Shown one piece after another: positions 1-52,970 of a DNA stretch of 64,000 nt (its first letter is position 1; each line of letters begins with the position of its first letter). The notes under the pieces are model-generated. The model ran no database searches. It was not told the origin of the DNA and saw only the letters and a list, made by a program, of their open reading frames with translations. The position numbers were made by a program, and so were the translations under genes. The stretch comes from Candidatus Woesearchaeota archaeon. Its GTDB lineage: Archaea; Nanobdellota; Nanobdellia; Woesearchaeales; JABMPP01. The DNA is taken from contig JAGVYD010000010.1 in NCBI GenBank assembly GCA_018303405.1, forward strand, positions 1-64,000, written 5' to 3'.

Positions 1-306
1 TCAAATTATTAATATTTAAATGAATTTATCATGCAAAATATGTAAAAAATTACACTTAATACAAAATAAATTACAATTTATGACGATTTATTAGTATATA
101 ATCTCAAAAAAATTTGATTTATTAGCAAACATACTAAGAAACTATTACTTAATTACTTAAATAAATGCTATTAATACTAAATAATCTATATATTAATAGA
201 TAAATATATTATAAAAATTACATATAAATTTAAATAAATCAATATTTATAATAATTATATAAATTATTAGGAAAAAGTTATTTTAGTTATTTTCATATTA
301 ACTAAT
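1..306. other. AT-rich intergenic region without a recognisable gene
   Basis: About 300 bases that are almost entirely A and T, in sharp contrast with the rest of the window. I see no open reading frame, tRNA or repeat array here. Its right end holds the promoter of the gene at 307: a TTATTTTA-like box lies near 275-285, about 26 bases before the start codon. The region could be a promoter or a chromosome domain boundary; nothing in it proves a further function. Confidence 0.6.
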
Positions 307-17253: not shown

Positions 17254-18678
17254 TCAAACTCTCTTTTTGACTGCTGCCTGGAGCATTTCCAAATCCTTAT
17301 TGTCAAACACTCTCATGAGCAGTGTCAGTCCAACATATATGCATGCGGCAAATGCTATCTGCACCCACAGGCTGATGCTGGCCAGGAAAATGCACGATGC
17401 GGCAAGCGCAGCCACAAAGGGCTTCCAAATCTCAAAAAAAGCAACTGTTGAATCCACATATTTCATAATAAGGTGATAATACAATAACATCAAGAGCAGC
17501 TCGCTGATAACTGTGGTTATTGCCGCGCCCACAAATCCATAAATTGGTATTATCAGGAGGTTCAGCACAATGTTCACCGCAGCGGTGATCCCCTGGTAAA
17601 CCACCCTTTCCTTTTGACGGTCCATAGACGCCAAAACACTGCCATTAACATTGCTCAAAAACCTGAAAATAACCACAATGCTCAAAACCCTCAGCACGAT
17701 TATGCTGCTTTCATATGCATGGCCATATAGAATCGTTATTATTTGTGGGGCAAGCACAAAGAATCCGACTGCAATTGGAGGTGCCAGTACCATCATGTAC
17801 TTCGCCGACCTGCCATAAATCATTTTGAAGCTGTCAGATGACCTGGTAAAGACCCTTGAAAGAACAGGGAATATGGCAAATGTGTAAATGTAAGGTATGA
17901 TCATTATGGCCAGTGGGATATTGTATGCAGCGCTGTAAATGCCCACCTCATAATCCCCTCTCATCTTGGAAAGCATGACACTGCCTATGTAAAAATAGAT
18001 ATTGTAAAAGACCAGGGTAAGTGCAAAGGGTATTGATTCCATGAACAGGCCCTTTATGAAAGCCCAGTCATGCTCATATTTGATTCTAACATACTTCGCA
18101 GCCATAATCCAGAATGACAAGATCAGCAATGCTGCCTCGCTGCACAAATACAAAAGGGCAACAGCAAATAGGCCATATCCATTCCACAACGCTGCTACCA
18201 CACCGGCAGTTAGAAGGATTGCCCGCAAGGCCTTGATTGCCCCATCCCACTGCATTTCTTCATAAGCGACGAACACTGAGCTGAAAAGGTCAGTGAAGGA
18301 TTTTAACAGGAACGAGCCAAAGAAAATATAGACAATTATTCTCACTTCCCTGAGATAGCCAAGAAGGTTAAGGAAAAGCATCACCAATAAGAATGAACCA
18401 ATTGTCAGCCACAGCTTCAGGTACAAGGAATTGCTCAGGTACCTTGCAGCCAATTTTCTGTCCCTGCTGACTTTTAGCACCAGCAATAGCTGCAGGCCCA
18501 GCCCTGCCAGGATAACAGCAATCATGGAGAAGGAAATCGCAAAATTATACCTTCCAAAAAGCGCGCTGCCAAGCTCCCTTGCCATGAACACGACAAGGAA
18601 AATCTGCAGCACCCTGACTATGAATTCAGCAGCTGTCAGCACAAAAATATTCCTGGCAATTCTTCTGACTCCTTCCAT
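17254..18678 (-). CDS. Polysaccharide/oligosaccharide flippase (Wzx-like)
   Basis: 474 residues with 12-14 predicted membrane helices and few charged loops. The opening (NIFVLTAAEFIVRVLQIFLVVFMARELG) and the middle FAIFPVLSRVF block are typical of the polysaccharide_synt/MVF clan that flips lipid-linked sugars across the membrane. It is the first of two flippases in the window (the other is at 47349). TTTATAA about 30 bases upstream on the minus strand is its likely TATA box. It is convergent with the UDP-xylose genes and divergent from the SGNH gene. Confidence 0.9.
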   Translation of the reverse strand: MEGVRRIARNIFVLTAAEFIVRVLQIFLVVFMARELGSALFGRYNFAISFSMIAVILAGLGLQLLLVLKVSRDRKLAARYLSNSLYLKLWLTIGSFLLVMLFLNLLGYLREVRIIVYIFFGSFLLKSFTDLFSSVFVAYEEMQWDGAIKALRAILLTAGVVAALWNGYGLFAVALLYLCSEAALLILSFWIMAAKYVRIKYEHDWAFIKGLFMESIPFALTLVFYNIYFYIGSVMLSKMRGDYEVGIYSAAYNIPLAIMIIPYIYTFAIFPVLSRVFTRSSDSFKMIYGRSAKYMMVLAPPIAVGFFVLAPQIITILYGHAYESSIIVLRVLSIVVIFRFLSNVNGSVLASMDRQKERVVYQGITAAVNIVLNLLIIPIYGFVGAAITTVISELLLMLLYYHLIMKYVDSTVAFFEIWKPFVAALAASCIFLASISLWVQIAFAACIYVGLTLLMRVFDNKDLEMLQAAVKKRV

Positions 18679-18748: not shown

Positions 18749-20143
18749 ATGTATCATATCATGCACCAGCCTCAGGCTGTGTCGGGGGCAAGACTTATGG
18801 CCTATAAGCCAGTTTTGGTTCGCGGAATGCCCAGGCATTCTGCTGTGAATTTTGGCAAATTCGTGGTCCTGTTAATCATTGCACTTCCGGTTTTTTGCCT
18901 GCTGTTCAGGCAAAACTACACCAGCTTGCTGTACTATGTGCTTGGCATCATCATACTTGAAATTCTTATGCAGGTATTTGTCAATTATCTCCGGGGCAAA
19001 TTTCCATGGATGATAACTGCAAAGGATGAACTGCCCGAAATTAATCCTAAGGGCCTCGACAGCTTCATGAAACATGGCTTTGATGCAGAGCTTGGCTGGA
19101 TCAGGAAGCCAAACACTTCAAAGGAAGAAAAGGGAAAGGAAGGCACTTCAAAATATCACATCGGTGCAAATGGAGCAAGAAAAAATCCGGGTTATGAAAA
19201 AAAGCCTCTCAAAATATCTGTCTACGGCGACAGCTTTGCCTTTGCGCGCCAGGTAAATGACAACCAGACATGGGAATGGCACCTCAGCAAGCTTACAAAA
19301 AGCAACGTGCTTAATCTTGGCGTGGGAAATTATGGGCTTGACCAGTCCATAATCAGGATGAAGCGCGACTATCCAAGCAGCCGGACCCCTGTAGTAATAA
19401 TCGGGGTTGTCCCCTCCACTATTGTGCGTGTGCTGTGCATCTGGAAGCATTACAATGAGTTCGGGAATGCCCTTGCATTCAAGCCCATGTTCGTGCTCGG
19501 CGGCAAAAAGCCCAGGCTTGTGCCAAACATAATGACATCAAGGGAGAAGATTCTCAGCCTTGAAGGCCATCTTGATTATTTTCAGAAGAATGATTATTTT
19601 TATAAGGCAAAGTTCAGGAAGGAAATGATAAGCTTCCCCTACACAATGTCATTTTTTGGCAATCCGCTGAGGAACATCCCTCTTGCCCTGCTCATCCTTT
19701 GGTCTGAATTCTTCGAATCAGCTGAGCAAAAGGCAAAACAGGTTTATTCCACTCCCATGAAAGTAATAATGGACATTAACCTGGAGCTGAGATATGCGCT
19801 TTACACCAAGAATGATTATGCCCCTGAATTGATGAGGCAACTGGTTGTAAAGGAATTTGCAGATTATGCCAAGCGCATGAAATTCAGGCCTGTTTTCCTG
19901 ATGTTGCCGCAAAAAGATGATGTGGCCTTTGTCAGAAAGCACGGCAATTATTATGCTGAATTTATCAAAAGCATTTCAGGCAATGTGGTGGCAATTGATT
20001 TGACAGACAGCCTGCTGAAAGCCAGGGACATTGACAGCCTTTACTCTGATGACAATCAGTATGGCGGGCACTACAGCAAAAAGGGAAATAAATTCGTAGC
20101 TGAACATGTTTATTCAGCACTCAAGGATGCCAAACTGTTCTGA
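18749..20143 (+). CDS. Membrane-anchored SGNH-fold hydrolase or acyltransferase-like protein
   Basis: 464 residues. Two N-terminal membrane helices (about 30-72) are followed by an SGNH-like domain: block I ISVYGDSFAFARQV (GDS with the nucleophile serine), a glycine block LGVGNYGLDQS, and block V YGGHYSKKGNKFVAEH with the catalytic histidine and a preceding aspartate. Such domains add or remove acyl groups on surface glycans (AlgJ/AlgX and DltD-like). The fold's order is complete, so it is probably active. It lies just before the glutamine-kinase-like operon, so a role in modifying the same surface polymer is possible but not shown. ATG 18761 or 18797 could also be the start. Confidence 0.75.
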   Translation: MYHIMHQPQAVSGARLMAYKPVLVRGMPRHSAVNFGKFVVLLIIALPVFCLLFRQNYTSLLYYVLGIIILEILMQVFVNYLRGKFPWMITAKDELPEINPKGLDSFMKHGFDAELGWIRKPNTSKEEKGKEGTSKYHIGANGARKNPGYEKKPLKISVYGDSFAFARQVNDNQTWEWHLSKLTKSNVLNLGVGNYGLDQSIIRMKRDYPSSRTPVVIIGVVPSTIVRVLCIWKHYNEFGNALAFKPMFVLGGKKPRLVPNIMTSREKILSLEGHLDYFQKNDYFYKAKFRKEMISFPYTMSFFGNPLRNIPLALLILWSEFFESAEQKAKQVYSTPMKVIMDINLELRYALYTKNDYAPELMRQLVVKEFADYAKRMKFRPVFLMLPQKDDVAFVRKHGNYYAEFIKSISGNVVAIDLTDSLLKARDIDSLYSDDNQYGGHYSKKGNKFVAEHVYSALKDAKLF

Positions 20144-20309: not shown

Positions 20310-23300
20310 ATGAAAGCCAAAGTCTGGAAAAACAAGTCAAACGGCCAGCTGTGCATAACCATAGCCAAGAATTCCGGGGTCAGGGAAGGCGACCTTGTTG
20401 AAGTCGACCAGCCTAAGGTCAGGACAATAGCTTACAGCGGTGTTGTTGCGGACATGTTCCATTACGGGCATTTGAACAGCCTCCTGTATGCAGCTTCAAT
20501 CTCTGATTTCAATGTGTGCGGAATTTTGACAGACAAGGCAGTTGAGGAATACCGCGCCAGGCCAATTGCCAATCTGGAAGAAAGAAAAGCAATTGTTTCC
20601 AATCTTAAGTGCGTTGACAGGGTCATGGTGCAAAAAACGCGCGACCCGACTCAAAACCTAAAAAAGCTCCATGAGGAATTTCCTGAGGCGGAAATAATCC
20701 TTGTGCACGGCTCTGACCTAAAATATGTGCACGGCTCAGAATACATCACCCAAATCAATGGCAAGGTTATGCAGCATCCCTATTATGACAGGCTTTCCAC
20801 TTACAAAATACTCAACCGTTTCCTGGAATCCGGCACAACCCTCAAGGACATAACCAACTTCACCTCTTACATCGCAGGCAAGAAGCCGTTTGACACAGAG
20901 GACAAGCGCGGGAACAAGATGATTGTTTCCACCAAGGCTGAAACCCTGAAGGCGCTGATGCCTCTTGTCAGGAAATCCAGAATTGAGAAAATGTACATTT
21001 TCACAACAGCAGACTGGAAAAACCAGCGGGAGCAAATCCTGAGGGACATAAAGGAAAGCTTTGCAGGAAAAATCATTGTCCGTTCATCTGCTGTGAACGA
21101 GGACACGCTTAAGCAGTCGCTCGCAGGAAACTATCAAAGCGTCCTGAATGTAAATCCGGGCGACGAAAAATCCACTTCATCAGCAATTAATGCGGTATTG
21201 GATTCGTATGCCAAAGGCATGGGTGAAAGCAGCTTCAACCAAATACTGGTGCAGCAGCAGACAGAAAACATTGCAATGTCAGGCGTAGTGTTCACCTACG
21301 CTCTTGGGACAAATGCACCTTACTATGTAATCAACTATGACTCCACCACAAAAAGCACAGACAGCGTGACAGCTGGACGTGAAAGCCAGTCAATGATGAT
21401 ATTCCGAAAAAGCAGGCAGTATCCTGCCAAAATGCAAAGACTCATGGAAGCGGTGAAAGAGCTCGAGGAGCTTATTCCCGGCCTGCCGCTGGATATTGAA
21501 TTTGCCATTGCCGGGAACAAAGAAAGCGTTGTCTTGTTCCAGGTCAGGCCATTGGCCGCCAACATCAATGAAGCCAGGATGGATGACCAGGTCAGGGAAA
21601 GGATTTCACAGCTGAAACAGAAGTTTTCCCAATTATCCAGGCCAGTTGCCCATCTTGAAGGCTCCTACACAATTTTCGCTGACATGCCTGACTGGAACCC
21701 TGCGGAAATAATTGGGGACAATCCGCATTATCTGGATTTTTCCTTATATGATTACCTCATAACAGACAGCGCATGGCACGAGGCAAGGACATCACAGGGA
21801 TATTTTGATGTCAGCCCGGCCAAGCTTGTTGAGCTTTTCGGCAATAAGCCCTATGTCAATGTGAGGAACACATTCAATTCGTTCACCCCTGCCACAATAT
21901 CAAAGGCATTGAGAGGCAAGCTCATTGCATTCTATCTTGAAAAATTAAAAAAACAGCCAGAGCTGTATGACAAGGTGGAATTTGACATACTTTTTACCTG
22001 CTATGATTTAGACTATAATGCTCGAGCAGATGAGCTCCTGAAAAACGGCTTCTCAAAACAGGAGACTGAAAGCCTTAAGCAATCTCTAATTTCCCTAACG
22101 AACAACCTTGTGCTCGCAAGCCCACAGTCCATCAGGGCAGACATGGATGATGGATTTTCCCTGAAAAAAAACAGGGACAAAATTGCACTCCAACAAAAAA
22201 AGGAAACACCTTCTCCAATGAAGATCATATCTGACGCAAAACTTCTTCTCGATGACTGCAGGAAGCTTGGCACAGTCCAATTCTCAAGGCTGGCAAGGCT
22301 CGCTTTTATCGCTAAAATAATCCTAAAGAGCCTTGTGTCAAACAAAATTGTGTCAAAGGAATGGGAGGATAATCTTCTTGCTTCAATCTCAACCGTTGCC
22401 ACTGATATGAAAACAGACTTTGAAAAACTGGCCGAAGGCTCAATGAGCCAGGAGGATTTTGTTGAAAAATATTCCCACCTAAGACCCGGCTCATATGACA
22501 TCACCTCACCACGTTATGGCTCAAACCCGGACCTCATCAGCACAAGCCATGCCGAGCTAAAAACCAAAGCATCCGAAAAAAAGCGGACTTTCAAGCTAAT
22601 TCCTGAGGACAGGAAAAAAATAGACAAAGCATTCATCAAACACGGGCTAACATTCAATGCTGGCCAGTTCATGGAATTTGTCAAGGCAGCTATCTCATCT
22701 AGAGAGCTTTCAAAATTCGAGTTCACAAAGAATCTGAGCGACGCAATTGAGCTTTTGGCCGAAGCTGGCATGAAAATGGGCTTTACGCGCCAGGAGATTG
22801 CCATGCTGGATATCAACGAAATATTTGAAATGAACAACTCAGCCACCAATGCGCACCAGCTCAGCCTCAAATGGAAGGAAAGGATAAAAACCCGGACCGA
22901 AGAAAGAGGGATTAACAACCACCTTCTGCTTCCATCAATTTTGTTTTCAGCAGATGACTTTGATATTGTCAGACATCACAAGACAAAGCCAAATTTTGTG
23001 ACTCAAAAATCAGTTGAGGCGGAAATAATCGAAATAAATAATAGCTCGGACTCCAGCATACCTGATATTGAAGGCAAGATTGTGCTGATTGAAAACGGCG
23101 ACCCGGGCTATGACTGGATTTTTACAAGGGAGATAAAAGGCCTTATCACAAAATATGGAGGGGCAGCTTCCCATATGACAATAAGGTGCGCTGAATTCAG
23201 CCTGCCTGCTGCAATTGGCAGCGGCGGCACAATATATTCACAGCTTCAGTCAGCAAAACGGGCAAGGCTGGACTGCAAAGGCATGCGAATAACAGTCACG

Positions 23301-23312
23301 GAGGCAAAATAA
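20310..23312 (+). CDS. Fusion: AbrB-like domain, HxGH cytidylyltransferase, glutamine-kinase/PEP-synthase-like enzyme
   Basis: 1000 residues. Residues 1-35 look like an AbrB/SpoVT swapped hairpin. Residues 38-175 are an HxGH nucleotidyltransferase of the glycerol- or ethanolamine-phosphate cytidylyltransferase type (DMFHYGH, histidines 51 and 54). Residues about 205-420 are an ATP-grasp domain like that of PEP synthase (IIVRSSAVNEDT, later LDIEFAI and FQVRPL). A long helical middle follows, and the C-terminus is the phosphohistidine swivelling domain (KYGGAASHMTIRCAEF, His 955). The ATP-grasp plus swivelling-histidine set is shared by PEP synthase and by Campylobacter L-glutamine kinase Cj1418. 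The next gene resembles Cj1417 and a nearby one Cj1416, so glutamine kinase is favoured. There is no pyruvate/PEP barrel domain at the C-terminus, which argues against PEP synthase. Confidence 0.75.
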   Translation: MKAKVWKNKSNGQLCITIAKNSGVREGDLVEVDQPKVRTIAYSGVVADMFHYGHLNSLLYAASISDFNVCGILTDKAVEEYRARPIANLEERKAIVSNLKCVDRVMVQKTRDPTQNLKKLHEEFPEAEIILVHGSDLKYVHGSEYITQINGKVMQHPYYDRLSTYKILNRFLESGTTLKDITNFTSYIAGKKPFDTEDKRGNKMIVSTKAETLKALMPLVRKSRIEKMYIFTTADWKNQREQILRDIKESFAGKIIVRSSAVNEDTLKQSLAGNYQSVLNVNPGDEKSTSSAINAVLDSYAKGMGESSFNQILVQQQTENIAMSGVVFTYALGTNAPYYVINYDSTTKSTDSVTAGRESQSMMIFRKSRQYPAKMQRLMEAVKELEELIPGLPLDIEFAIAGNKESVVLFQVRPLAANINEARMDDQVRERISQLKQKFSQLSRPVAHLEGSYTIFADMPDWNPAEIIGDNPHYLDFSLYDYLITDSAWHEARTSQGYFDVSPAKLVELFGNKPYVNVRNTFNSFTPATISKALRGKLIAFYLEKLKKQPELYDKVEFDILFTCYDLDYNARADELLKNGFSKQETESLKQSLISLTNNLVLASPQSIRADMDDGFSLKKNRDKIALQQKKETPSPMKIISDAKLLLDDCRKLGTVQFSRLARLAFIAKIILKSLVSNKIVSKEWEDNLLASISTVATDMKTDFEKLAEGSMSQEDFVEKYSHLRPGSYDITSPRYGSNPDLISTSHAELKTKASEKKRTFKLIPEDRKKIDKAFIKHGLTFNAGQFMEFVKAAISSRELSKFEFTKNLSDAIELLAEAGMKMGFTRQEIAMLDINEIFEMNNSATNAHQLSLKWKERIKTRTEERGINNHLLLPSILFSADDFDIVRHHKTKPNFVTQKSVEAEIIEINNSSDSSIPDIEGKIVLIENGDPGYDWIFTREIKGLITKYGGAASHMTIRCAEFSLPAAIGSGGTIYSQLQSAKRARLDCKGMRITVTEAK

Positions 23313-23313
23313 A

Positions 23314-24012
23314 ATGTGGATGGCCATAACGCAAAGAAACGAGAAAAACAGGCACGGCTCTGCAATAGATGTGCTCGAACAGAACTATGTCAACTTTTTT
23401 GAGAAATTTGGCATTAAGCTAATTGCCATTCCAAACAGTACATCTGATATTGAGCAATATTTCACACAGCTTCCTGTCAAGGCCTTAATCATTACAGGCG
23501 GAGGCGATGTTGATCCTAAGCTGTACGGCGGAAAAAGAAAAGAAGGCATGGAACTGTCCTCAATGCGCGATGCAACAGAAAAAAAACTCATGGCTTATGC
23601 AGTTGAACACAAGCTTCCCGTCCTCGGCATCTGCCGCGGCTGCCAGTTCATAAATGTCTTTTTCGGCGGAAAAGTAATAACCGGCATCAAGGACGCAGTC
23701 GGAGAAACACATGTTGGCGTTGAGCATGGCATAAAAGTTGTGGATGCTTCAGTCCAGGCAGTGCTCGGCAAAAAAGGAAAAGTGAACTCCTACCATGACC
23801 ACGGCATGACTGAAAAAGAGCTTGCCAAAGGACTGAAACCATTTGCACTGTCTGAAAAGGGCGTTATTGAAGGCTACTATCATGAATCGCTTCCCATTGC
23901 AGCGATAATCTGGCATCCCGAAAGAAAATCTCCTGACAATAAATTCAATGCTAAGATTATAAAGGCATTCATGGCTGGGAAATTGTTCTGGAAAGCCAGA
24001 AATACAAGATAG
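23314..24012 (+). CDS. Class I glutamine amidotransferase-like hydrolase (gamma-glutamyl-CDP-amidate hydrolase candidate)
   Basis: 232 residues, a single GATase domain of the PuuD/peptidase C26 type. TGGGDVDP (61-68) is the oxyanion strand, GICRGCQF carries the nucleophile C107, and WHPER carries H201 and E203, so the triad is complete. C26 enzymes cut gamma-glutamyl amide bonds; Campylobacter Cj1417 of this family releases glutamate from CDP-L-glutamine to give cytidine diphosphoramidate. The gene begins one base after the stop of the kinase-like fusion, so the two are coupled. This pairing is the main reason for preferring the phosphoramidate reading over polyamine breakdown. Confidence 0.78.
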   Translation: MWMAITQRNEKNRHGSAIDVLEQNYVNFFEKFGIKLIAIPNSTSDIEQYFTQLPVKALIITGGGDVDPKLYGGKRKEGMELSSMRDATEKKLMAYAVEHKLPVLGICRGCQFINVFFGGKVITGIKDAVGETHVGVEHGIKVVDASVQAVLGKKGKVNSYHDHGMTEKELAKGLKPFALSEKGVIEGYYHESLPIAAIIWHPERKSPDNKFNAKIIKAFMAGKLFWKARNTR

Positions 24013-24059
24013 TCAGGGGAATGCTGATTCAAAATTCAATCAATATTTGTCCAAAAGAA

Positions 24060-24995
24060 TTATCTCAATTTTGTCATTGCTATTTTCTGCTCAAGCACTT
24101 CCTGGCTTTTGCCATTTTCCCTGAGCCATCTGTCCTGCTCCTGAAGGATTTCCATTCCCAGGTCAACTTCCGTTCTGACAGAGGGCTTTTCGAAACCTGC
24201 CAGGCCCCTTTGTCTGAATACAACGCTATGGGGGTGTCGGCTGTCATACTCCACTTCAATGCCTGTTAATGGTTCCAATGCCCCCCCTGTCTGTTCAAAA
24301 TACTTAATCAATCTTTCAGGGTCACTGCCATCTTTCCCCATTAGCATATCCAGTGTCAAATATAAGAAAAATTCAATATCCCCGGAATGACCAAAATTAA
24401 TGTCCAATTGCTTAGGCCTTATATTGCTTACTTTAGACTCATTAAACAAATTTAAGGATCGGTAAAAATGTGCTCCAATTCTGCATGCATATTCTCTCAA
24501 AGAAATTCCTGGATCAGCTGGATTTCCGGCCTGTGGGTTGTCCAGTCCTTGTTCAAGCCAGGCTCGCAAAGGTGCATGTTCTCCATCACCAGCCGCATAG
24601 GTATCGGATTTTTTTGCCTCCGCCCACAAATCAGACATTGCCTTTGGGCCCAAATTAACCGCTTTCCCATCTCTGTCCATGGCATAGCTTCCAATGAGGG
24701 GAACAACATTTGGCCCTGCCAGTCTCCTTGCGCCATTTTTTTCACCGTTCAATCTTGGATCTATATTCAGTATCTCATAAACAATACCAGCTGTTGCCCT
24801 TGCCCTGTCAACAGGGGATGTGCCTATTATAACATTTTCATCTCCATGCAGACCATGCATAATCTCACCGGCATAATTCACGATATAAAACAATTTAGAA
24901 GAGTCCAGCAATGCTTCTGTGCCGGCCCCGTGAGCATTTGGGTCATTGTTCTTGTGCCCATGCCTTACAATTTTCTGTGTGTAAAGTTTGTCCAT
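24060..24995 (-). CDS. Histidine phosphatase superfamily protein
   Basis: About 311 residues from ATG 24995, chosen because TATA-like ATTTAAAC lies at 25029-25036; a longer frame to 25115 is AT-rich and unlikely. KIVRHGHK near the N-terminus is the RHG motif with the phosphorylated histidine, and NFGHSGDIEFFLY near residue 220 supplies the second catalytic histidine, as in the phytase/acid-phosphatase branch. Between them the sequence is divergent and I cannot name a substrate. No signal peptide is seen, so it is probably cytosolic. It lies convergent to the amidotransferase and divergent from the cytidylyltransferase, in the middle of the putative phosphoramidate locus. Confidence 0.75.
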   Translation of the reverse strand: MDKLYTQKIVRHGHKNNDPNAHGAGTEALLDSSKLFYIVNYAGEIMHGLHGDENVIIGTSPVDRARATAGIVYEILNIDPRLNGEKNGARRLAGPNVVPLIGSYAMDRDGKAVNLGPKAMSDLWAEAKKSDTYAAGDGEHAPLRAWLEQGLDNPQAGNPADPGISLREYACRIGAHFYRSLNLFNESKVSNIRPKQLDINFGHSGDIEFFLYLTLDMLMGKDGSDPERLIKYFEQTGGALEPLTGIEVEYDSRHPHSVVFRQRGLAGFEKPSVRTEVDLGMEILQEQDRWLRENGKSQEVLEQKIAMTKLR

Positions 24996-25159
24996 TTTGC
25001 CTGCTATTATCAAGCCATCTATCCCAATATTTAAACCTTTGTATAATTTTCTACTATAAAATAGTAAATATATATTGATGCAGGCACAATGTTTATAAAA
25101 CAATTTGCAATACAATTATCAACATAAACTCAGTAAAATTTCAACCTCAGGAGTGCAAA

Positions 25160-25951
25160 ATGAAAGCAATCATCCTCGCAGCAGGAATGGGGACAAGGCT
25201 GGGCAAGTACACCAAGGATTTGCCAAAATGCATGCTCAAGTTCAGCGGCAAGACCCTTCTGGAAAGGCAGATTGAAACATTGAGAAATGCAGGCATCAGG
25301 GATATTTCCATTGTCACGGGCTACATGGCTGAAAAAATAAATTATCCCGGAGTCAAATATTACAAGAATAAGGATTTTGCAACAACCAACATGGTTGAAA
25401 GCCTTTTCTGTGCTGTTGATGAAATGACAGATGACCTGGTTGTCTGCTACGGCGATATTGTCTACCAGAAAAGCGTGATTGATTCTGTGATGCAGAGCAA
25501 GGCTGACATTGGCGTGACTGTTGACTTGGATTACTGGCCATATTGGGCTGCCCGCCTTTCCGAGCCTGAAAAGGACATAGAAAGCCTTGTGGTGGATAAA
25601 AATGGAAAAATAATCGACCTTGGCAATCCGGACTGCAGCCTTGAAGAAGCCAAGGTCCGCTATGTCGGCCTTATTAGATTCTCAAAAAAGGGGCTTTCAG
25701 CGCTGAAAAAAGTCTATTCAGAAAATAAAAAAAAGTATTTCAGCAAAGACGCGCCATGGTTGCGCTCAAAGTCTTTCAAGAAAGCGTATATGACATGCAT
25801 GCTCCAGGCAATGATCAATGCGGGCTACAAAGTCATGCCTATACCAATCAATCGTGGCTGGCTCGAATTTGACACAAGCGAAGATTATGAGAAAATGAGC
25901 GGGCTTCATAAATCAGGCAGGCTCAAGCAATTTATAAAATTGGATGCATAA
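25160..25951 (+). CDS. LicC/Cj1416-like CTP:phospho-compound cytidylyltransferase
   Basis: 263 residues, NTP_transferase fold. The nucleotide-binding opening is ILAAGMGTRLGKYTKDLPKCML (the G-x-GTRL motif, with the PKCM lysine), and VVCYGDIVY holds a metal-binding aspartate. The last part (GWLEFDTSEDYEKM) is typical of LicC-like and sugar cytidylyltransferases. In Campylobacter, Cj1416 of this group makes CDP-L-glutamine from L-glutamine phosphate and CTP; choline- or sugar-phosphate are alternative substrates. It has its own TATA-like TTTATAAAA (near 25090) and GGAGTG ribosome site. The adjacent CDP-alcohol phosphotransferase points to a CDP-linked product in either case. Confidence 0.78.
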   Translation: MKAIILAAGMGTRLGKYTKDLPKCMLKFSGKTLLERQIETLRNAGIRDISIVTGYMAEKINYPGVKYYKNKDFATTNMVESLFCAVDEMTDDLVVCYGDIVYQKSVIDSVMQSKADIGVTVDLDYWPYWAARLSEPEKDIESLVVDKNGKIIDLGNPDCSLEEAKVRYVGLIRFSKKGLSALKKVYSENKKKYFSKDAPWLRSKSFKKAYMTCMLQAMINAGYKVMPIPINRGWLEFDTSEDYEKMSGLHKSGRLKQFIKLDA

Positions 25952-25988: not shown

Positions 25989-26864
25989 CTATCTATCGCC
26001 AAAAACAGATTTGTAATACTGCTCAACTGCCTTTCCATTATAGTGCACAACAAATGAGATTATCTGCTTAACAACAGAACCCGCACCATATGCAACAATG
26101 AACCAATAAAAGACTGAGTAGCTCATAAAATACCTGCTTCCATTCATCCAATTTGCATATTCAATTATTGAAATTATCGTGAGGTACACTATGTGGGCAG
26201 GGTCGCCCCAAAAATTCAGAAGCTTGCTGTAAAGGTCGCTCAGTGACTTGCCGGCGCTGGAGCCCTGAAGGTTTATCTGCTTTGCAGAAGCCTTGCCCAA
26301 TTTACTTTTCCCTTTTTTCTCGTTGCTGACTTTTTCTTCAAGCTTTATCTTCATAACAGTTGAAAAAATTGTCTCAATGACAATGGATTTGGAAAACACA
26401 GAGGCAAGGAAGCCGAATATCAGCACACTTGTCCAGCCTGTTTTAATATAGGCCCCAAAAGCAACTGCAAAAAACATAAGGTGCGAGACCATGGCATGGT
26501 AAAAATCCTCCAGAAACATGCCTGATTTGCTGGACATGCTCCTGTACCTGGCAATTTCCCCGTCACAGCAATCAAGAATGACCGTAAAGTGTATTATCAA
26601 TATCCCAACCAGGATATTGAGCAGGCTTCCTGTAAACATGAATATTGCGCCTGTAATCACGAGGAATATTTCCAATAGGCTGACCTGGTTTGGCGTAATC
26701 CCGGTATGCAGCAGAAGCCAGGTGACATAGATAGAAACCTTGTTTGAAAAATGCTTATTGTACCATGGCCTGAAAACCTTATGGCCATGATAGCAAATCC
26801 TTCTCAATTCCTTTGGCGATTCTACCATAACAATCCCCTGTGGCTCTGGCCTATGCCCGAGCAT
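25989..26864 (-). CDS. CDP-alcohol phosphatidyltransferase family membrane enzyme
   Basis: About 291 residues, five or six membrane helices. The CDP-alcohol motif reads DGEIARYRSMSSKSGMFLEDFYH, matching DGxxARx8G, but the last two aspartates (D...D) are replaced by glutamate and histidine. The histidine replacement occurs in some family members as I recall them, so it need not mean loss of activity. The enzyme would transfer a phospho-group from a CDP-activated donor to an alcohol in the membrane. It ends the minus-strand operon of CDP-sugar genes but has an internal TATA-like box (near 26905). ATG 26864 and 26828 are both possible starts. Confidence 0.8.
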   Translation of the reverse strand: MLGHRPEPQGIVMVESPKELRRICYHGHKVFRPWYNKHFSNKVSIYVTWLLLHTGITPNQVSLLEIFLVITGAIFMFTGSLLNILVGILIIHFTVILDCCDGEIARYRSMSSKSGMFLEDFYHAMVSHLMFFAVAFGAYIKTGWTSVLIFGFLASVFSKSIVIETIFSTVMKIKLEEKVSNEKKGKSKLGKASAKQINLQGSSAGKSLSDLYSKLLNFWGDPAHIVYLTIISIIEYANWMNGSRYFMSYSVFYWFIVAYGAGSVVKQIISFVVHYNGKAVEQYYKSVFGDR

Positions 26865-26911
26865 CAATGTAAATTCTATATCAATGCATAACCAAAAGCG
26901 CGATTATAAAT

Positions 26912-28042
26912 CTATGCTTTCGACGGAGGTTGCCTCTTCCCACTACCCACAGCTTCCTCAATAATTTTTTCAGTCTGTTTCGAAAGGCTTTCCCATTTCA
27001 GTTCCTTAAGATGGGCAGAATAATCCGGCCTGTCTTTTTTCCCCAGGGCCTTTGCCAGTTTGTCAGCAAGGTCTTTGGCATCACCCGGCTTTGCCAGGGA
27101 ATCACCGTAATCCTCAAGCATCAATGCGATATCCCCTATTTTGGTCGCGACTATGTTCACGCTGCATGCCATGTATTCGGGCAGCTTGTAAGGGAAGCAA
27201 TACCTGCTGAACTCGTTTTCAAGATTCGGGATTACAACAGCATCGCTGGCATTGATTGCCAGCACAACTTCCTCTCTTTTTGGGAGGGCTTCAAAAATCA
27301 CATTCTCCCTCTCAATGTCAATATTGTTCTTTACCTGCCCGCTTAGCAGCAAATAGGTATTTGGATGCTTGCGGAGCAATATATCAAAGGCATCCAGCAG
27401 GACATTTGCGCCTTTCAGGCTGCTGATCTCGCCGACATAAGTAACTATTTTCCCATTATTCCCTGTTTTTTTCGCCAGGCCCAGCTTTTTTCTCGCCATT
27501 CTCTGGTCTATTTTCCTGAACATACCAAGGTCAACGCCATTTGGCACAACTCCTATCCTTCCTTTCCTGAACTGGGAAATGTGGCGTTTCAATTCCCTGC
27601 TCACCGTGATGAGCCCGTCAGCCTCGCGAACTGCCTTTCGGTCATAATGCCCGACCAATGGGAATTTGTAGGCATCATAAATCTCAAAATTGTCTTGCAA
27701 ATCATAAACAAACGGAACGCCATATTTCCTGGACAGGCAATTTGCCATGATGCCATAAATGGGGTCTGTAGTTCCGACTATAGCATCATACTGCCCCTGG
27801 CGGACAATTTTTTTCATTTCATTCCAAAGGCTGTAGAAGCTCCACCACCTAAATGGCCTGACAATGTACCTTATGCCATTTTTTTTTGCAGTAAAATTTT
27901 CATGCTTGACTGTGTCAGGGCAGAAGAAGTCGATTTTATGGTCTTGGACAAGCGGCTTGAATAGGCTGATTTGCCTGCCGAACTCACGGCTGACCATGTC
28001 CTGGCCAGCGCCAAAGCGCTTCATTATTACAAGAATTTTCAT
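26912..28042 (-). CDS. Glycosyltransferase family 4-like
   Basis: 376 residues, GT-B fold. N-terminal domain opens MKILVIMKRFGAGQDMVSREF; the C-terminal domain begins near KIVTYVGEISSLKGANVLLDAF and has the LPEYMACSVNIVATKIGDI nucleotide-sugar binding block with the acidic residue of the E-x7-E type (weak). No membrane segment. It sits 9 bases after the CDP-glucose dehydratase gene, so it probably uses a sugar made by that operon. Donor and acceptor are unknown. Confidence 0.85.
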   Translation of the reverse strand: MKILVIMKRFGAGQDMVSREFGRQISLFKPLVQDHKIDFFCPDTVKHENFTAKKNGIRYIVRPFRWWSFYSLWNEMKKIVRQGQYDAIVGTTDPIYGIMANCLSRKYGVPFVYDLQDNFEIYDAYKFPLVGHYDRKAVREADGLITVSRELKRHISQFRKGRIGVVPNGVDLGMFRKIDQRMARKKLGLAKKTGNNGKIVTYVGEISSLKGANVLLDAFDILLRKHPNTYLLLSGQVKNNIDIERENVIFEALPKREEVVLAINASDAVVIPNLENEFSRYCFPYKLPEYMACSVNIVATKIGDIALMLEDYGDSLAKPGDAKDLADKLAKALGKKDRPDYSAHLKELKWESLSKQTEKIIEEAVGSGKRQPPSKA

Positions 28043-28051
28043 TTTGAGATG

Positions 28052-29026
28052 CTATCTGGATTTTCCAAGATAGCTGGTATACCACTCTATTGTCTCTTTG
28101 AGTCCCTCATCCAAGGTATGCTCAGGCTTCCATTTCAGCAGCTTTCGGGCCTTGTCGCAGGCAAGGTACTGCCTGTCAATCTCATGCCTGGCCTGGCCGA
28201 GCACTTTGGGCTCGATTTTCTTCCCCATCATCCTGATTATCTTCCTGAACAGCTCAAGCACGCTTATTGGCGTCTCAGCTCCGAAATTAAAAGCCTGGCC
28301 AACAATCTCTTTCCTGTCCATATTCTCTGCAAGGGCAAGATACGCATTCACAGCATCCTTGATGTACATATAGTCCCTCTGCAGTGTGCCGTCGCTCCTT
28401 ATCACTGGCACATCCCCTCTCAGCACAGATGATACAACATCAGGGACAATCCTGCTGTAATTCAGGTCGCCTGGGCCATAGGTGTTCGCATTTCTCGTGA
28501 TTGCAATCGGCAGTCCGTATGTTTTGAAGTATGAAGTTGAAAGTATGTCGGCGCATGCTTTCGAGGCGTCGTATGGATAATAGCCAAGCAATGGGCTGTC
28601 TTCTGTGTAAGGCAGCTTTTTCTGCTGGCCATATGCCTTGTCGCTCGATGCCATCACAATTCTCTTGACGCTGCCGAGCAGCCTGCACGCCTCAAGGATA
28701 TTCCATGTCCCCTTGATATTGGACTCAAAAGTTGACAGTGGTGACTTATTTGCAGATCCCACCAGCGCCTGTGCAGCAAGATGGAATACAGTGTCAATCT
28801 CAAACTCATTCAATGTGCGCTGCACAACTGCAATATCAACCAGGTCGCCATGGACAACTGTTATCTTTTGCCTCATGTTCCAGATGTCAAGGCAGTTTTC
28901 TTTTTTTATATCGCGGACAATAGTAACTACATTTGCGCCCTTCTCAACTAGTGTTTTTGCCACCCATGAGCCAATGAACCCATCAGCGCCAGTGACCAGC
29001 ACTTTTTTCCCTTTCCAGAAGCTCAT
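28052..29026 (-). CDS. rfbG: CDP-glucose 4,6-dehydratase-like (RfbG) SDR enzyme
   Basis: 324 residues from ATG 29026, which overlaps the stop of the upstream cytidylyltransferase (ATGA) and has GGTGG upstream; 29041 is an alternative. NAD motif VTGADGFIGSWVAKTL, the serine block SSDKAYG, and YDASK with catalytic Tyr and Lys. SSDKAYG and the ARHEIDRQYLACDKARKLLKW end are typical of CDP-glucose dehydratases. With the upstream RfbF it would make CDP-4-keto-6-deoxyglucose, the precursor of 3,6-dideoxy and branched sugars. Other nucleotide-sugar substrates cannot be excluded. Confidence 0.85.
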   Translation of the reverse strand: MSFWKGKKVLVTGADGFIGSWVAKTLVEKGANVVTIVRDIKKENCLDIWNMRQKITVVHGDLVDIAVVQRTLNEFEIDTVFHLAAQALVGSANKSPLSTFESNIKGTWNILEACRLLGSVKRIVMASSDKAYGQQKKLPYTEDSPLLGYYPYDASKACADILSTSYFKTYGLPIAITRNANTYGPGDLNYSRIVPDVVSSVLRGDVPVIRSDGTLQRDYMYIKDAVNAYLALAENMDRKEIVGQAFNFGAETPISVLELFRKIIRMMGKKIEPKVLGQARHEIDRQYLACDKARKLLKWKPEHTLDEGLKETIEWYTSYLGKSR

Positions 29027-29718
29027 TTCCAGACCACCCATTTCCTGTCAGTTTTCCAAAGCTCATTGAATTCGATAACATCCTTCAAGGTATTCATTGA
29101 TTTCCAAAATCCGCTGTGCTTATAGGATGCAATTTGCCTTTCCCTGGCCAAATCAGTGAATGCCTCTCTTTCCAGGTCATAGCCTTTCTTGATATAGTTG
29201 AAAATCTTCCTGTTTATGACATAAAACCCGCCATTGATAAGGTGGTCAAGCACAGGCTTTTCCAGGAAGTCAGTCACCAGTCCATCCTTGTCTGTTGTGA
29301 TTATGCCAAACTGCGACATCAGCCTCACAGCAGTCAGGGTCACTATCTTGCCATGCTTCTTGTGGTGTTCAATAACCTTGTTGATATTCGCGTCAGTCAG
29401 GTCATCCCCGTAGCTCAACAGGAAATCCTCATCATTGCCCATGAGCTTCTTTGCCATCTTGAGCCTTTCTCCCTTATTGCTTTCCTCCCCGGTGTCCAGG
29501 AAAGTTATGTTGAATTCTGAATTCCTGAAGTAATCCTCGATTGCCTTTTTCCTGTATCCGAGAAGCAAAATAAACTCATTATGCCCATAATGCTTATAGA
29601 GTTTCATGAGGTGCCACAATATTGGCCTGTCGCCTATTTTTATCATGGGCTTGGGCAATTCATCTGTCATTTCGCTTAGCCTTGTTCCCTTTCCCCCGCA
29701 GAAAATAACCACTTTCAT
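29023..29718 (-). CDS. rfbF: Glucose-1-phosphate cytidylyltransferase-like (RfbF)
   Basis: 231 residues. The opening VVIFCGGKGTRLSEMTDELPKPMIKIG is the nucleotidyltransferase motif in the form usual for RfbF, and LSYGDDLTDANI and FWKSMNTLKDVIEFNELW are further RfbF-like blocks. It would couple CTP and glucose-1-phosphate to CDP-glucose. TTTAAATAAG about 26 bases before the start gives a leaderless promoter for the operon rfbF-rfbG-glycosyltransferase-(CDP-alcohol enzyme). Confidence 0.9.
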   Translation of the reverse strand: MKVVIFCGGKGTRLSEMTDELPKPMIKIGDRPILWHLMKLYKHYGHNEFILLLGYRKKAIEDYFRNSEFNITFLDTGEESNKGERLKMAKKLMGNDEDFLLSYGDDLTDANINKVIEHHKKHGKIVTLTAVRLMSQFGIITTDKDGLVTDFLEKPVLDHLINGGFYVINRKIFNYIKKGYDLEREAFTDLARERQIASYKHSGFWKSMNTLKDVIEFNELWKTDRKWVVWK

Positions 29719-50006: not shown

Positions 50007-51092
50007 CTAGAATTTTTCCTTAACACACATTTTTGTGATAGGCTGATTTGACAAAATTTTTATGGATGCTGTTTTTCCGATCAATGCCTCAAAATATTTG
50101 GGTTGAAGTCCCTTTTTCATCTTGCCTTTCCTTAACACAATCAGGTTTTCCATGCTGAATTTCTTTCCCTTGCTTATATTTTTCTTGGCAAACACATACT
50201 CTCTGGCAAAATCATATAACTCTTTTTCCTCTTTCAAAATAACCTTCCTGTCATCTCCCAATGTTTTTTCCAAGTCCCTGATTCCCTTTACCATCTGTTT
50301 GAGCTCATGGGGGAGAATAGCAAACCCATGATCCGGGCCCGGCAGCGAGTTATCTGTTGTATAGTGTTTTTCAACAAGGTTGGCTCCGAGAGCAACCGCT
50401 CCAAGAGGGGGGATTAAATGATCTCTAGCATGGTCGGAGAGTCCGACCGGCAATCCAAATATTTTTTTTAAAGTGGGTATCACTTTCAAGTTTATGGTTT
50501 CAATAGGCGCCGGGTATTTGGCAGTGCATTGCATGAGGCATATCTGAACATCCCTTTTGTTCCTGATGACATGCAGAGCCCTTTTTATCTCGCCAATTGT
50601 GGAGGCTCCTGTAGATAATATTATTGGCTTGCCTTTGCTTGCAATATATCTCAGCAAAGGCTCATGTGTTATGCTGTAAGAAGCAATTTTATAAGAACTT
50701 ATCCCCCTTCTCTCCAGCTCATCCACTGCCTCTTCATCAAACGGGCTGCACATGAAAATTATGCCTTTTGCAATGCAATATTTTTTTAATTTTGGCAGCC
50801 ATTCATAAGGCAATTCCATCTCCCGTATTATGTCATATATCGATTTCTTCTTTCCGATATAATCTGCGGTGCCAGCTTTCTTGACATATAACTTATTTGC
50901 CCTGTACAATTGAAATTTGACAGCATCTGCTTTTGCCTCAACGGCAATATCAATCAATCTCAAGGCCTGTTTGAAATTCACTTTTGGATCTCTGGAAATT
51001 CTAAAGTTCGCCCCGGCTTCAGCTATTACAAAGCAAGGTTGCCCATCGCCTATTTGCCTATTTTCTATTTTTACCAATTTGTTTTTCGGCAT
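50007..51092 (-). CDS. pseI: Nonulosonate (pseudaminic/legionaminic-type) synthase, NeuB family
   Basis: 361 residues from ATG 51092 (GGAGGG upstream). NeuB TIM barrel: CFVIAEAGANF, KFQLYRANKLY, CSPFDEEAVDELE, ILSTGASTIGEI, QCTAKYPAP, GLSDHARDH and EKHYTTD, all expected active-site blocks. The C-terminus is a SAF/antifreeze-like domain (KGKKFSMENLIVLRKGK). It condenses PEP with a 6-deoxy-hexose derivative. The neighbouring PseB and PseC homologues favour pseudaminic acid over sialic acid. It overlaps the cytidylyltransferase gene by 35 bases. Confidence 0.9.
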   Translation of the reverse strand: MPKNKLVKIENRQIGDGQPCFVIAEAGANFRISRDPKVNFKQALRLIDIAVEAKADAVKFQLYRANKLYVKKAGTADYIGKKKSIYDIIREMELPYEWLPKLKKYCIAKGIIFMCSPFDEEAVDELERRGISSYKIASYSITHEPLLRYIASKGKPIILSTGASTIGEIKRALHVIRNKRDVQICLMQCTAKYPAPIETINLKVIPTLKKIFGLPVGLSDHARDHLIPPLGAVALGANLVEKHYTTDNSLPGPDHGFAILPHELKQMVKGIRDLEKTLGDDRKVILKEEKELYDFAREYVFAKKNISKGKKFSMENLIVLRKGKMKKGLQPKYFEALIGKTASIKILSNQPITKMCVKEKF

Positions 51093-51789
51093 TTTTCCAA
51101 TCCCTCCATGTATCAATATCAATCAATGCTCCTGGTTCCATTATTATAAATTGCACATTTTTATCATCTACTAATTTATTTTTATTCATGATGACATTGT
51201 ATTTTGAGAAATAAATAGCTCCATTCTCCTTATACAATGGCTTGTAAAGCTGCCTATTGACCCTTTTCTTTGGATAAAATGGAATATACTCCCTGGATTT
51301 TTTATCATGTACCCAGTATCTGCCATAATCTTCCTCAACACTTACAACGCTGTTGCAATTATCTTTTTTCAGCAATTTTATTGCCTCAATTACTGCATCT
51401 CTGCGCAATAACGGATTTGTAGGGTAGAGCAGCAATATGATGTCTGTTTTGTAGCCTTCTTTTTTCTCCAGATGCTTAACAGCGTGCTGAAGCACCGGGA
51501 GCGTAGGTGTACTATCCTTAGCTAATTGCTTGGGCCTTATAAATGGAGTTTCAGCGCCATATATGTTTGCAATTTTTGCTATCTCTTCGGAATCTGTGGA
51601 TACAATAACCCTATCGATGGCTGAAATAGATTTTGCCAATTCTATGGGATAGGCTATTAGGGGCTTGTTAGAAAGCATCTTGATATTTTTTTTGGGTATG
51701 CTCTTGCTGCCTCCTCTTGCAGGTATAATGGCCACAACGCCCGCTTTCCTGCTTTTTGTGCTTTTTTTATTTCTTTTCAAAGAAATCAC
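51058..51789 (-). CDS. pseF: Nonulosonate cytidylyltransferase (PseF/NeuA-type)
   Basis: 243 residues. AIIPARGGSKSIPKKNIKMLSNKPLI is the CMP-sugar synthetase motif; RVIVSTDSEEIAKIA, LLYPTNPLLRR and the DIDTWRDW end complete the family. A basic 15-residue N-terminal extension precedes it. It activates the nonulosonate with CTP to give the CMP-sugar used by transferases. It overlaps the PseC gene upstream by 23 bases and the synthase gene downstream by 35, so the operon is tight. Confidence 0.9.
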   Translation of the reverse strand: MISLKRNKKSTKSRKAGVVAIIPARGGSKSIPKKNIKMLSNKPLIAYPIELAKSISAIDRVIVSTDSEEIAKIANIYGAETPFIRPKQLAKDSTPTLPVLQHAVKHLEKKEGYKTDIILLLYPTNPLLRRDAVIEAIKLLKKDNCNSVVSVEEDYGRYWVHDKKSREYIPFYPKKRVNRQLYKPLYKENGAIYFSKYNVIMNKNKLVDDKNVQFIIMEPGALIDIDTWRDWKNAEKQIGKNRK

Positions 51790-52906
51790 CTATTACCTTA
51801 ATAACGCTGTTTTGCTCGTCGTCTGTCAATCCAGGATACATGGGAATTGAGATTATTCTTTCGTAAAAAGATTCCGCATTCTTGCAAAGCCCTCTCTTGT
51901 ACCCCCTCTTCTCATAGCATCCGTGCCAATATACAGGTATGTAGTGCACCTGGCAGTGTATGCCATTCTTCTTCAGGTGGTTAAACAAGCTTAATCTAGT
52001 TTCTTTGTCCTTAACTTTGATCACAAAGAGATGGTAAGAATTGAGCTGTCCGGGATTTTCCGTGATTAATTCTATATTTTTGTTGCCTTTAAATGCCGCC
52101 TGGTATTTTGCAGCGATTTCTCGCCGCCTTTTAATAAACCCGTCAACCTTTATCAGCTGGCTCATTCCAAGCGCGCACTGGAAATCTGTAATCCTGTAAT
52201 TATACCCAAATTCAGGAATCTCATAAAACCACGGGCCTTCATTTTTGCTAATCATTTTTTCTGGGTTTTTTATCATTCCATGGTTCCTGAGGCGCAAAAG
52301 CCTATCGTACAGCTCTTTTGAATTTGTAGTTATCATGCCGCCTTCGCCAGTAGTTATAAGTTTGACAGGGTGAAAGCTGAAAACAGCCATATCAGAATAC
52401 TTACAGTCCCCTATCCTTGAATCTAAGTATCTGGCTCCAAGTGCGTGACAGGCATCTTCAATGATGATGAGTTTGTGCTTGTTTGCAATTTTCTTGATAT
52501 CGGACATGTTGCATGGCAAGCCCATATAATGAACAGGAATAATTGCCTTTGTCTTTTCTGTGATTTTCATCCCCAATTTGGCTGGGTCAATGAGCCCCTG
52601 CCCATCAATGTCGCAGAAAACTGGTTTCCCCCCGCAGAAAAGCGCGCAGCCGGCTGACGCTGTAAAAGTCATTGGCGAAGTAATCAGCTCTGTCCCTTCC
52701 TTGATGCCCGCTACAAGAGCTGCGAGATGCAGCCCGCTTGTGCCGGTGCTCACGGCAACAGCATATTTTGCTCCAACATAATCAGAGAACTTTTTTTCAA
52801 ATTCTGCAACTTTGGGCCCGTCCGTAATTATGTTTGATTTTAGCACTTCCACTACCTCTTTAATGTCCTCTTCAGATATACTCTGCCTTGCATACGGTAT
52901 GCTCAT
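51767..52906 (-). CDS. pseC: PseC-type PLP aminotransferase
   Basis: 379 residues from ATG 52906 (GGGGGTT upstream; a longer frame to 53065 overlaps the PseB gene and lacks similarity). DegT/DnrJ/EryC1 fold: VSTGTSGLHLAALVAG, IPVHYMGLPCNM, IIEDACHALGARY and FSFHPVKLITTGEGG, where the lysine binds PLP. PseC converts the 4-keto sugar from PseB into UDP-4-amino-4,6-dideoxy-altrose-type product. Gene order PseB-PseC-PseF-PseI fits that pathway. Confidence 0.9.
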   Translation of the reverse strand: MSIPYARQSISEEDIKEVVEVLKSNIITDGPKVAEFEKKFSDYVGAKYAVAVSTGTSGLHLAALVAGIKEGTELITSPMTFTASAGCALFCGGKPVFCDIDGQGLIDPAKLGMKITEKTKAIIPVHYMGLPCNMSDIKKIANKHKLIIIEDACHALGARYLDSRIGDCKYSDMAVFSFHPVKLITTGEGGMITTNSKELYDRLLRLRNHGMIKNPEKMISKNEGPWFYEIPEFGYNYRITDFQCALGMSQLIKVDGFIKRRREIAAKYQAAFKGNKNIELITENPGQLNSYHLFVIKVKDKETRLSLFNHLKKNGIHCQVHYIPVYWHGCYEKRGYKRGLCKNAESFYERIISIPMYPGLTDDEQNSVIKVIGDFFEKK

Positions 52907-52970
52907 TATAACCCCCTTAACCGCTATCTCTCGCCAGGTAAGCCCCTCTCTAATATTCAACAGGCATGGT

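Follow-up and report, generated by a model that had tools for sequence, protein, structure and literature searches.

A predicted CDP-diphosphoramidate pathway with a fused cytidylyltransferase in a surface-glycan locus of a Woesearchaeota archaeon

Can an archaeon attach phosphoramidate to its surface glycans? Very few organisms are known to have biological P–N bonds in their surface polymers: Campylobacter has O-methyl phosphoramidate, and the lipopolysaccharides of Xanthomonas and Shewanella bear the unmethylated form (PMC3907429). The Campylobacter modification is a phage receptor (PMC8713573). In Campylobacter, Cj1415–Cj1418 convert glutamine, ATP and CTP into 3'-phospho-CDP-phosphoramidate (PMC11800397); Cj1418, earlier annotated as a PEP synthase, is the L-glutamine kinase (PMC10971088). 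No phosphoramidate from an archaeon has been reported in the literature that we searched.

The question is raised by a locus of Candidatus Woesearchaeota archaeon GCA_018303405.1 (contig JAGVYD010000010.1, positions 1–64,000, forward strand; these 64,000 nucleotides are referred to as the window), which belongs to a 95%-complete genome. Between positions 20310 and 25951 lie the three genes under study, encoding a kinase, a C26 amidase and a LicC-like enzyme (the trio). The original prediction had proposed that they match the start of the Campylobacter pathway, and the three open reading frames are present where it had placed them, as are the nearby histidine-phosphatase-like, SGNH and CDP-alcohol phosphotransferase frames (Table 1). 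Its account of the gene content overlooked one component: because kinase residues ~36–170 form a HIGH-type cytidylyltransferase, the locus encodes two cytidylyltransferases, the fused one and the LicC-like one.

Table 1. Features of the locus, in window coordinates.
Feature	Position	Strand	Basis
Fused enzyme: N-terminal HIGH-type cytidylyltransferase and glutamine-kinase-family dikinase, 1000 aa	20310-23312	+	PF01467, PF01326, PF00391
Cytidylyltransferase domain, residues ~36-170, HYGH motif	20415-20819	+	PF01467, 5x3d match
Dikinase core: ATP-grasp, helical linker, swivelling His domain	20904-23297	+	
His955 codon, predicted phospho-/pyrophospho-carrier	23172-23174	+	S954-H955 invariance
C26 amidase, predicted gamma-glutamyl-CDP-amidate hydrolase, 232 aa	23314-24012	+	PF07722, NF045546, triad
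LicC-like cytidylyltransferase, predicted CTP:N-phosphoglutamine cytidylyltransferase, 263 aa	25160-25951	+	NTP_transf_3, 1jyk
SGNH-fold protein, membrane-anchored; candidate pathway partner (possible transferase or esterase)	18749-20143	+	
Histidine-phosphatase-like protein, between C26 and LicC genes	24060-25115	-	motifs
CDP-alcohol phosphotransferase-like membrane protein, candidate terminal transferase	25989-26867	-	PF01066, 41 bits
Wzx/MurJ-type flippase, glycan-locus context	17254-18678	-	PF01943, 103 bits
Glycosyltransferase, CDP-glucose 4,6-dehydratase-like and glucose-1-phosphate cytidylyltransferase-like genes; glycan context	26912-29718	-	

The kinase is not a PEP synthase. It matches the NF004508 dikinase family over its full length (residues 199–996) with 863 bits against a cut-off of 501, compared with 34 bits for PEP synthase TIGR01418 (cut-off 740) and 25 bits for rifampin phosphotransferase NF041857 (cut-off 999). 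A grouping with PEP synthases, which the original prediction had named as speaking against it, is thus not what these scores give. Its description of an ATP-grasp domain and a swivelling His955 without a pyruvate barrel also holds: R258 S259 S260, E264 D265, E397, Q411 and R413, together with S954-H955, are invariant across 37 aligned kinases, and the PEP/pyruvate barrel is absent from the protein as judged by fold comparison and by the length of the family, whose members have ~790 aa throughout plus optional N-terminal domains. In the AlphaFold2 model (pLDDT 87; plasmid sequences, two rows, were left out of the prediction run), the closest folds are rifampin phosphotransferases, ATP dikinases sharing the three-domain, barrel-less layout (5hv1, 5fbs); these differ from the window kinase by a sequence identity of 14–15% and another linker. 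The linker motifs MPDWNPAE and HLRPG.Y are common to the window kinase and the kinases of loci that carry a Cj1415-like gene. From gene order, we infer that NF004508 takes in Cj1418, and glutamine-kinase activity is predicted for the window protein; what ties the trio to Cj1416–Cj1418 is gene order and a curated model rather than direct alignment.

The C26 gene starts one base past the kinase stop codon, and its product (PF07722, 125 bits) carries a triad of C107, H201 and E203 that is invariant in 11 homologues, in agreement with the predicted intact amidotransferase. The proposed likeness to Cj1417 stands in part: the best curated NCBIfam family is NF045546, the Campylobacter gamma-glutamyl-CDP-amidate hydrolase, but the score of 93.6 bits does not reach the equivalog cut-off of 250. 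NF045546 also ranks first among curated families for five further trio C26 proteins; scores of the other trio C26 proteins range from 95 to 123 bits, all those tested falling below the cut-off. For the third enzyme, the cytidylyltransferase assignment is borne out by the motif LAAGMGTRL..PK (K23) and D99, invariant in 10 LicC-like homologues, by the nearly invariant E236 and D238, and by LicC (1jyk) as the nearest solved structure; specificity for N-phosphoglutamine is predicted.

The three genes belong together well beyond this genome. Relatives were taken from a contig scan as the best 80 of 514, with none from Campylobacterota among them. Kinase and C26 genes share a strand in 84 of 84 loci (75 within 60 bp), and C26 and LicC-like genes in all 81 loci (63 within 60 bp). 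The pairwise protein distances of the trio co-vary (Mantel r 0.72, 0.74 and 0.61, with 0 of 1000 permutations as high), the value of 0.74, over 77 loci, being that of the LicC-like protein with the kinase; the LicC-like gene is thus co-inherited with both partners. Because the trio is kept across more than 80 loci in two domains of life, chance association is excluded. A search for the neighbourhood across archaea, suggested in the original prediction, found the kinase-C26-LicC order in several archaea and many bacteria. The trio is therefore no one-off; it is found widely among bacteria and sporadically among archaea, one of which is the cultured Haloferax elongans. The Haloferax cluster (kinase-C26-LicC-APS-kinase) has the trio in the Campylobacter order; its kinase has a MobA-like rather than a HIGH-type N-terminal domain and, unlike the window's genome, it has the Cj1415-like gene, the APS-kinase.

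The match to NF004508, NF045546 as the best curated family and the recurring gene order support the phosphoramidate reading, and we consider it probable that this surface-glycan locus encodes a CDP-diphosphoramidate pathway of archaea. The kinase would phosphorylate glutamine, the LicC-like enzyme would place CMP from CTP onto N-phosphoglutamine, and the C26 enzyme would remove glutamate to leave CDP-diphosphoramidate, from which a membrane transferase would move the phosphoramidate group to a surface sugar. Two proteins encoded nearby are candidates for this last step, the CDP-alcohol-phosphotransferase-like and the SGNH protein, both of another type than Campylobacter Cj1421/Cj1422. The SGNH call comes from motifs and the predicted fold together with a weak profile match; the GDS, GN and H motifs are conserved, and an SGNH-type gene occurs in 12 other loci, in 9 of them on the same strand and at most 60 bp from a core gene. 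Relatives of the CDP-alcohol phosphotransferase-like protein, in which the final two motif aspartates are replaced (LEDFYH), lie near the trio in 8 loci. The histidine-phosphatase-like protein was called from its RHG and GHSGD motifs and had no match in a Pfam search; homologues lie in the same place and on the opposite strand in two further loci (L047 and L050). As homologues begin near residue 41, the gene probably ends at ~24995. Glyphos_transf (PF04464) was found in 6 of 8 pathway-bearing genomes and in 21 of 147 genomes of a phylum sample that partly overlaps with those eight; these genes are mostly far from the trio.

The fused N-terminal domain matches PF01467 with 40 bits (cut-off 21) and is conserved in 19 kinase genes. 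Its nearest solved relative is the Fom1 CyTase (5x3d), both by sequence (E 1.7e-15) and by fold (33% identity, TM 0.85). As in the Fom1 CyTase-PEP mutase fusion and PntC (PMC6697681), a PF01467 cytidylyltransferase stands N-terminal to an enzyme making an unusual phosphorus bond; here the partner is a P–N-type kinase, not a PEP mutase. The domain may act on N-phosphoglutamine itself or on a second phosphorylated compound, and with two cytidylyltransferases at the locus the assignment of steps is ambiguous.

With Campylobacter jejuni (PMC3907429, PMC11800397) the window shares a dikinase-family kinase (for glutamine in Campylobacter and, by prediction, here), a C26 hydrolase and a LicC-like enzyme linked in a surface-glycan locus. 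It differs by its archaeal host, the fused domain, the C26 score below the equivalog cut-off, the histidine-phosphatase-like gene between C26 and LicC, and the SGNH and CDP-alcohol-phosphotransferase neighbours. It differs further in the 3'-kinase: a Cj1415-like protein (PF01583) had no match anywhere in the window's genome, which leaves the final part of the Campylobacter pathway incomplete here, and the predicted match to that pathway holds for the trio and its glycan setting but not for this kinase. Counted at domain level, including copies fused to other domains (e.g. L048, L042), a Cj1415-like APS-kinase-type gene is present in 34 of 88 loci (about a third), and six of these have it fused to the kinase. 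Of 49 kinase genes with a fused cytidylyltransferase or MobA-like domain, 5 have this gene nearby, against 29 of the 39 others. The association between N-terminal fusion and a missing 3'-kinase (Fisher p 7.6e-10, 85 rows) is suggestive only, because no more than about five of the contrasts are independent (median p 0.5 in a sign test). The pattern suggests two pathway branches. Lacking a Cj1415-like kinase and having the extra HIGH-type domain, the window pathway probably belongs to a second branch, which would use CDP-diphosphoramidate without 3'-phosphorylation. A fuller version of this reading, which we rate as less likely than not, is that the branch exists in archaea and bacteria alike, lacks the Cj1415 3'-kinase and has a glutamine kinase with an additional nucleotidyltransferase-type domain, HIGH-type or MobA-like, fused to it. 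A membrane enzyme of the CDP-alcohol-phosphotransferase or SGNH type would then take the phosphoramidate group off plain CDP-diphosphoramidate and place it on a surface polymer. If so, the final structure would be unlike Campylobacter O-methyl phosphoramidate.

The same departures from Campylobacter, namely the extra cytidylyltransferase, the missing 3'-kinase and a C26 protein well under its cut-off, could also mean that the dikinase phosphorylates some other amide, amine or hydroxyl compound, which the trio then activates with CMP for glycan tailoring. This we regard as unlikely, though it is the alternative to be taken most seriously: there is little reason for a gamma-glutamyl hydrolase in the operon unless a glutamine-derived group has to be removed, and the shared linker motifs tie the window protein to the kinases of Cj1415-like loci. 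The kinship of the fused domain with Fom1 raises phosphonate tailoring, in which Fom1-like and PntC/LicC-like cytidylyltransferases would activate a P–C compound, and Ppm enzymes are indeed fused to PF12804 (33%) and PF01467 (23.6%), the same two domain families (PMC6697681). We rejected it as very improbable, since the fused domain is here joined to a dikinase, accompanied by a C26 amidase, rather than to Ppm, and PEP mutase (PF13714) was not found in the window's genome, with one weak match in eight pathway-bearing genomes.

Slighter still is the chance that the kinase is nothing more than a PEP synthase, PPDK or rifampin-type phosphotransferase to which the neighbouring glycan genes are unrelated. 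Its PPDK_N and PEP-utilizers domain matches and its rifampin phosphotransferase-like overall fold would fit this, but the family scores and fold comparison led us to reject the PEP synthase and rifampin phosphotransferase readings, the linkage with C26 and LicC is conserved, and two separate proteins with stronger PPDK_N matches are encoded elsewhere in the genome. Equally slight is bacterial contamination of the metagenome-assembled genome. Most occurrences of the pathway are bacterial, and the tree implies at least 5 changes between domains; against this, several Woesearchaeota carry the same fused gene and trio (among them 559-kb contigs and a record of 919 kb with the title chromosome), the window kinase clusters with their proteins (99*), and the cultured Haloferax elongans carries the set.

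Judged by its genes, the archaeal set is a variant of the Campylobacter gene set, fused to an extra cytidylyltransferase. If the phosphoramidate reading is true, P–N surface chemistry would extend to archaea, including a cultured halophile, Haloferax elongans, in which it can be tested, and would have crossed between domains several times. The conserved gene sets offer a genome-based handle on phosphoramidate modification, and the fusion pattern hints at a pathway branch undescribed in the literature searched.

The original prediction of an archaeal phosphoramidate pathway finds in silico support in the protein families, the catalytic residues, operon conservation and the surrounding glycan genes. 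ORF calling bears out the boundaries predicted for the three core genes (see table). By profile search, the 1000-aa product of the first combines a cytidylyltransferase domain, overlooked in the original prediction, with an ATP-grasp (PPDK_N) and a C-terminal PEP-utilizers swivelling domain. Residues 199-996 match NF004508/PRK05849 with 863 bits (cut-off 501), compared to only 34 bits (cut-off 740) for TIGR01418; identity as a PEP synthase, the grouping that would have spoken against the prediction, is thus rejected. A structure predicted from a 37-sequence alignment (mean pLDDT 87) resembles rifampin phosphotransferases for the greater part of the protein (best E 1.5e-22); its N-terminus resembles the Fom1 cytidylyltransferase domain (5x3d; 33% identity, TM 0.85 normalised by target length). 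Residues 1-33, modelled with low confidence, look like an AbrB/SpoVT-like swapped hairpin; in archaeal fusions, these ~33 residues read KxVWKNKSNGQLCVTIP...EGDxVE and have no match in a Pfam search.

Features of the window
Feature	Position	Strand	Remarks
SGNH protein	18749-20143	+	two N-terminal helices and GDS/GN/H core
Predicted L-glutamine kinase	20310-23312	+	1000 aa
Hairpin-like N-terminus of kinase	20310-20408	+	residues 1-33
HIGH-type cytidylyltransferase domain of kinase	residues about 36-170	+	PF01467, 40 bits (cut-off 21)
C26 amidase	23314-24012	+	Cys107/His201/Glu203
LicC-like cytidylyltransferase	25160-25951	+	
CDP-alcohol phosphotransferase-like protein	25989-26867	-	family motif, last two Asp altered
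NeuB-family synthase, CMP-sugar-type cytidylyltransferase, DegT aminotransferase, PF02719 dehydratase in a row	50007-54011	-	
668-aa protein	54992-56998	+	C-terminal Glyphos_transf/Epimerase_2-like domain

Alignment confirms that the triad of the C26 protein is intact. Its top curated family is NF045546 (gamma-glutamyl-CDP-amidate hydrolase), at 93.6 bits against 54.5 for the next family and an equivalog cut-off of 250; C26 proteins of other trio loci likewise match NF045546 first (95-123 bits). The LicC-like protein keeps its nucleotide- and metal-binding motifs, and its closest solved structure is CTP:phosphocholine cytidylyltransferase.

In Campylobacter, Cj1418 is the L-glutamine kinase (PMC10971088), and the four-gene set Cj1415-Cj1418 makes CDP-phosphoramidate 3'-phosphate out of Gln, ATP and CTP (PMC11800397). 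By analogy, the kinase of the window would convert Gln and ATP to N-phosphoglutamine, AMP and Pi via His955, LicC would form CDP-Gln with CTP, C26 hydrolysis would release CDP-diphosphoramidate and Glu, and a membrane enzyme would move the group to a sugar. Because the whole genome of the window contains no Cj1415-like kinase, CDP-diphosphoramidate would be used directly in this last step.

The NF004508 cut-off is exceeded in 7 of 371 genomes of the window's phylum, and one further genome carries a broken copy. Scanning one genome per species yielded 514 relatives; of the best 80 of these 514, 17 are archaeal by title, comprising eight Woesearchaeota, two Pacearchaeota, one Altiarchaeales, one Nanoarchaeota, one Euryarchaeota MAG, two marine group I thaumarchaeotes, one uncultured archaeon and the isolate Haloferax elongans ATCC BAA-1513. 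As the original prediction had suggested looking for, the trio recurs in other archaea. In H. elongans (L079:5287-10448), the kinase gene is directly followed by C26, LicC and, last, an APS-kinase-like gene, matching the Campylobacter Cj1418-Cj1415 set. Kinase and C26 share a strand in all 84 loci with both found (<=60 bp apart in 75), as do C26 and LicC in 81/81 (<=60 bp in 63). Across 77 loci, pairwise distances of the trio proteins are correlated (Mantel r 0.72, 0.74 and 0.61; 0/1000 permutations as high), in part because genomes share ancestry.

The kinase gene at L041:8665-11555 (genome G203) is spread over three reading frames, through either decay or a fault of the assembly, and L049 holds an intact close relative. 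A Pacearchaeal LicC-like enzyme is fused to serine hydroxymethyltransferase (L056:8967-10973). A formyltransferase and a ~200-aa protein without Pfam match often follow the trio (L052:7557-8884 and ~20 other loci). A full-length kinase-family protein also occurs in a 9.5-kb human faecal record labelled 'Bacteriophage sp.' (MT837632.1:661-2991), possibly mislabelled bacterial DNA.

A quick maximum-likelihood tree built from 85 kinases places the window kinase with Woesearchaeota (99*) and puts all HIGH-cytidylyltransferase fusions, including it, within one mixed archaeal and bacterial set. The tree requires five or more switches between domains, so the gene has probably been transferred between archaea and bacteria, in one direction or the other.

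Among 88 kinases, the N-terminus is a HIGH-type cytidylyltransferase in 19 (including the window), MobA-like in 30, an APS-kinase in 6 and without recognisable domain in 33, three of these being apparent ORF-start artefacts. The APS-kinase (Cj1415-like) fusions (loci L108, L101, L110, L111, L116 and L123) are mostly from Acidobacteriota. A search by domain in the sequence retrieved around the 88 loci places a Cj1415-like kinase with 1/19 HIGH-type, 4/30 MobA-like, 6/6 APS-kinase and 23/33 domain-less proteins. This striking association (Fisher p 7.6e-10) hints at a possible second branch of the pathway, but it is not phylogenetically significant because the tree offers only about five independent contrasts.

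Stand-alone LicC proteins of all N-terminal classes are mixed in one tree and fused MobA-like domains form a separate clade; LicC is thus the partner common to all, and the fused domain an addition. HxGH is kept in all but one HIGH-type domain; MobA-like domains lack the customary P-loop lysine but retain the metal-binding Asp region. PEP mutases of phosphonate biosynthesis are fused to the same two families, PF12804 (33.0%) and PF01467 (23.6%) (PMC6697681), a parallel that suggests, without proving, that the fused modules serve to attach a nucleotide to unusual phosphorus compounds and so activate them. The substrate of the window's fused domain may be a phosphorylated compound other than N-phosphoglutamine or, somewhat less probably, N-phosphoglutamine itself; a regulatory or structural role is the least likely of the three.

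The predicted neighbours were all located. The helices of the SGNH protein are probably transmembrane, and its predicted structure resembles SGNH hydrolases; weaker structural matches include the O-acetyltransferase PatB. Homologues occur in 12 other trio loci, nine on the same strand and <=60 bp from a core gene, and the protein is a good candidate to act in the pathway. Relatives of the CDP-alcohol phosphotransferase-like protein lie near the trio in eight loci; Glu and His replace the last two Asp of its family motif, and several of these relatives share the last-Asp-to-His change. The histidine-phosphatase-like ORF occupies the same place in loci L047 and L050. Profile searches place a flippase, glycosyltransferases and CDP-glucose pathway genes around the trio, which therefore lies, as proposed, in a surface-glycan locus. 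Further along, the NeuB-to-dehydratase row appears from its gene content to be a nonulosonic (sialic-like) acid pathway, and Glyphos_transf genes occur in 6/8 pathway-bearing genomes tested.

We found no description of an archaeal phosphoramidate pathway in the literature searched, and novelty is claimed within that limit. The locus is one of many such loci, and represents a variant rather than a full copy of the Campylobacter pathway.
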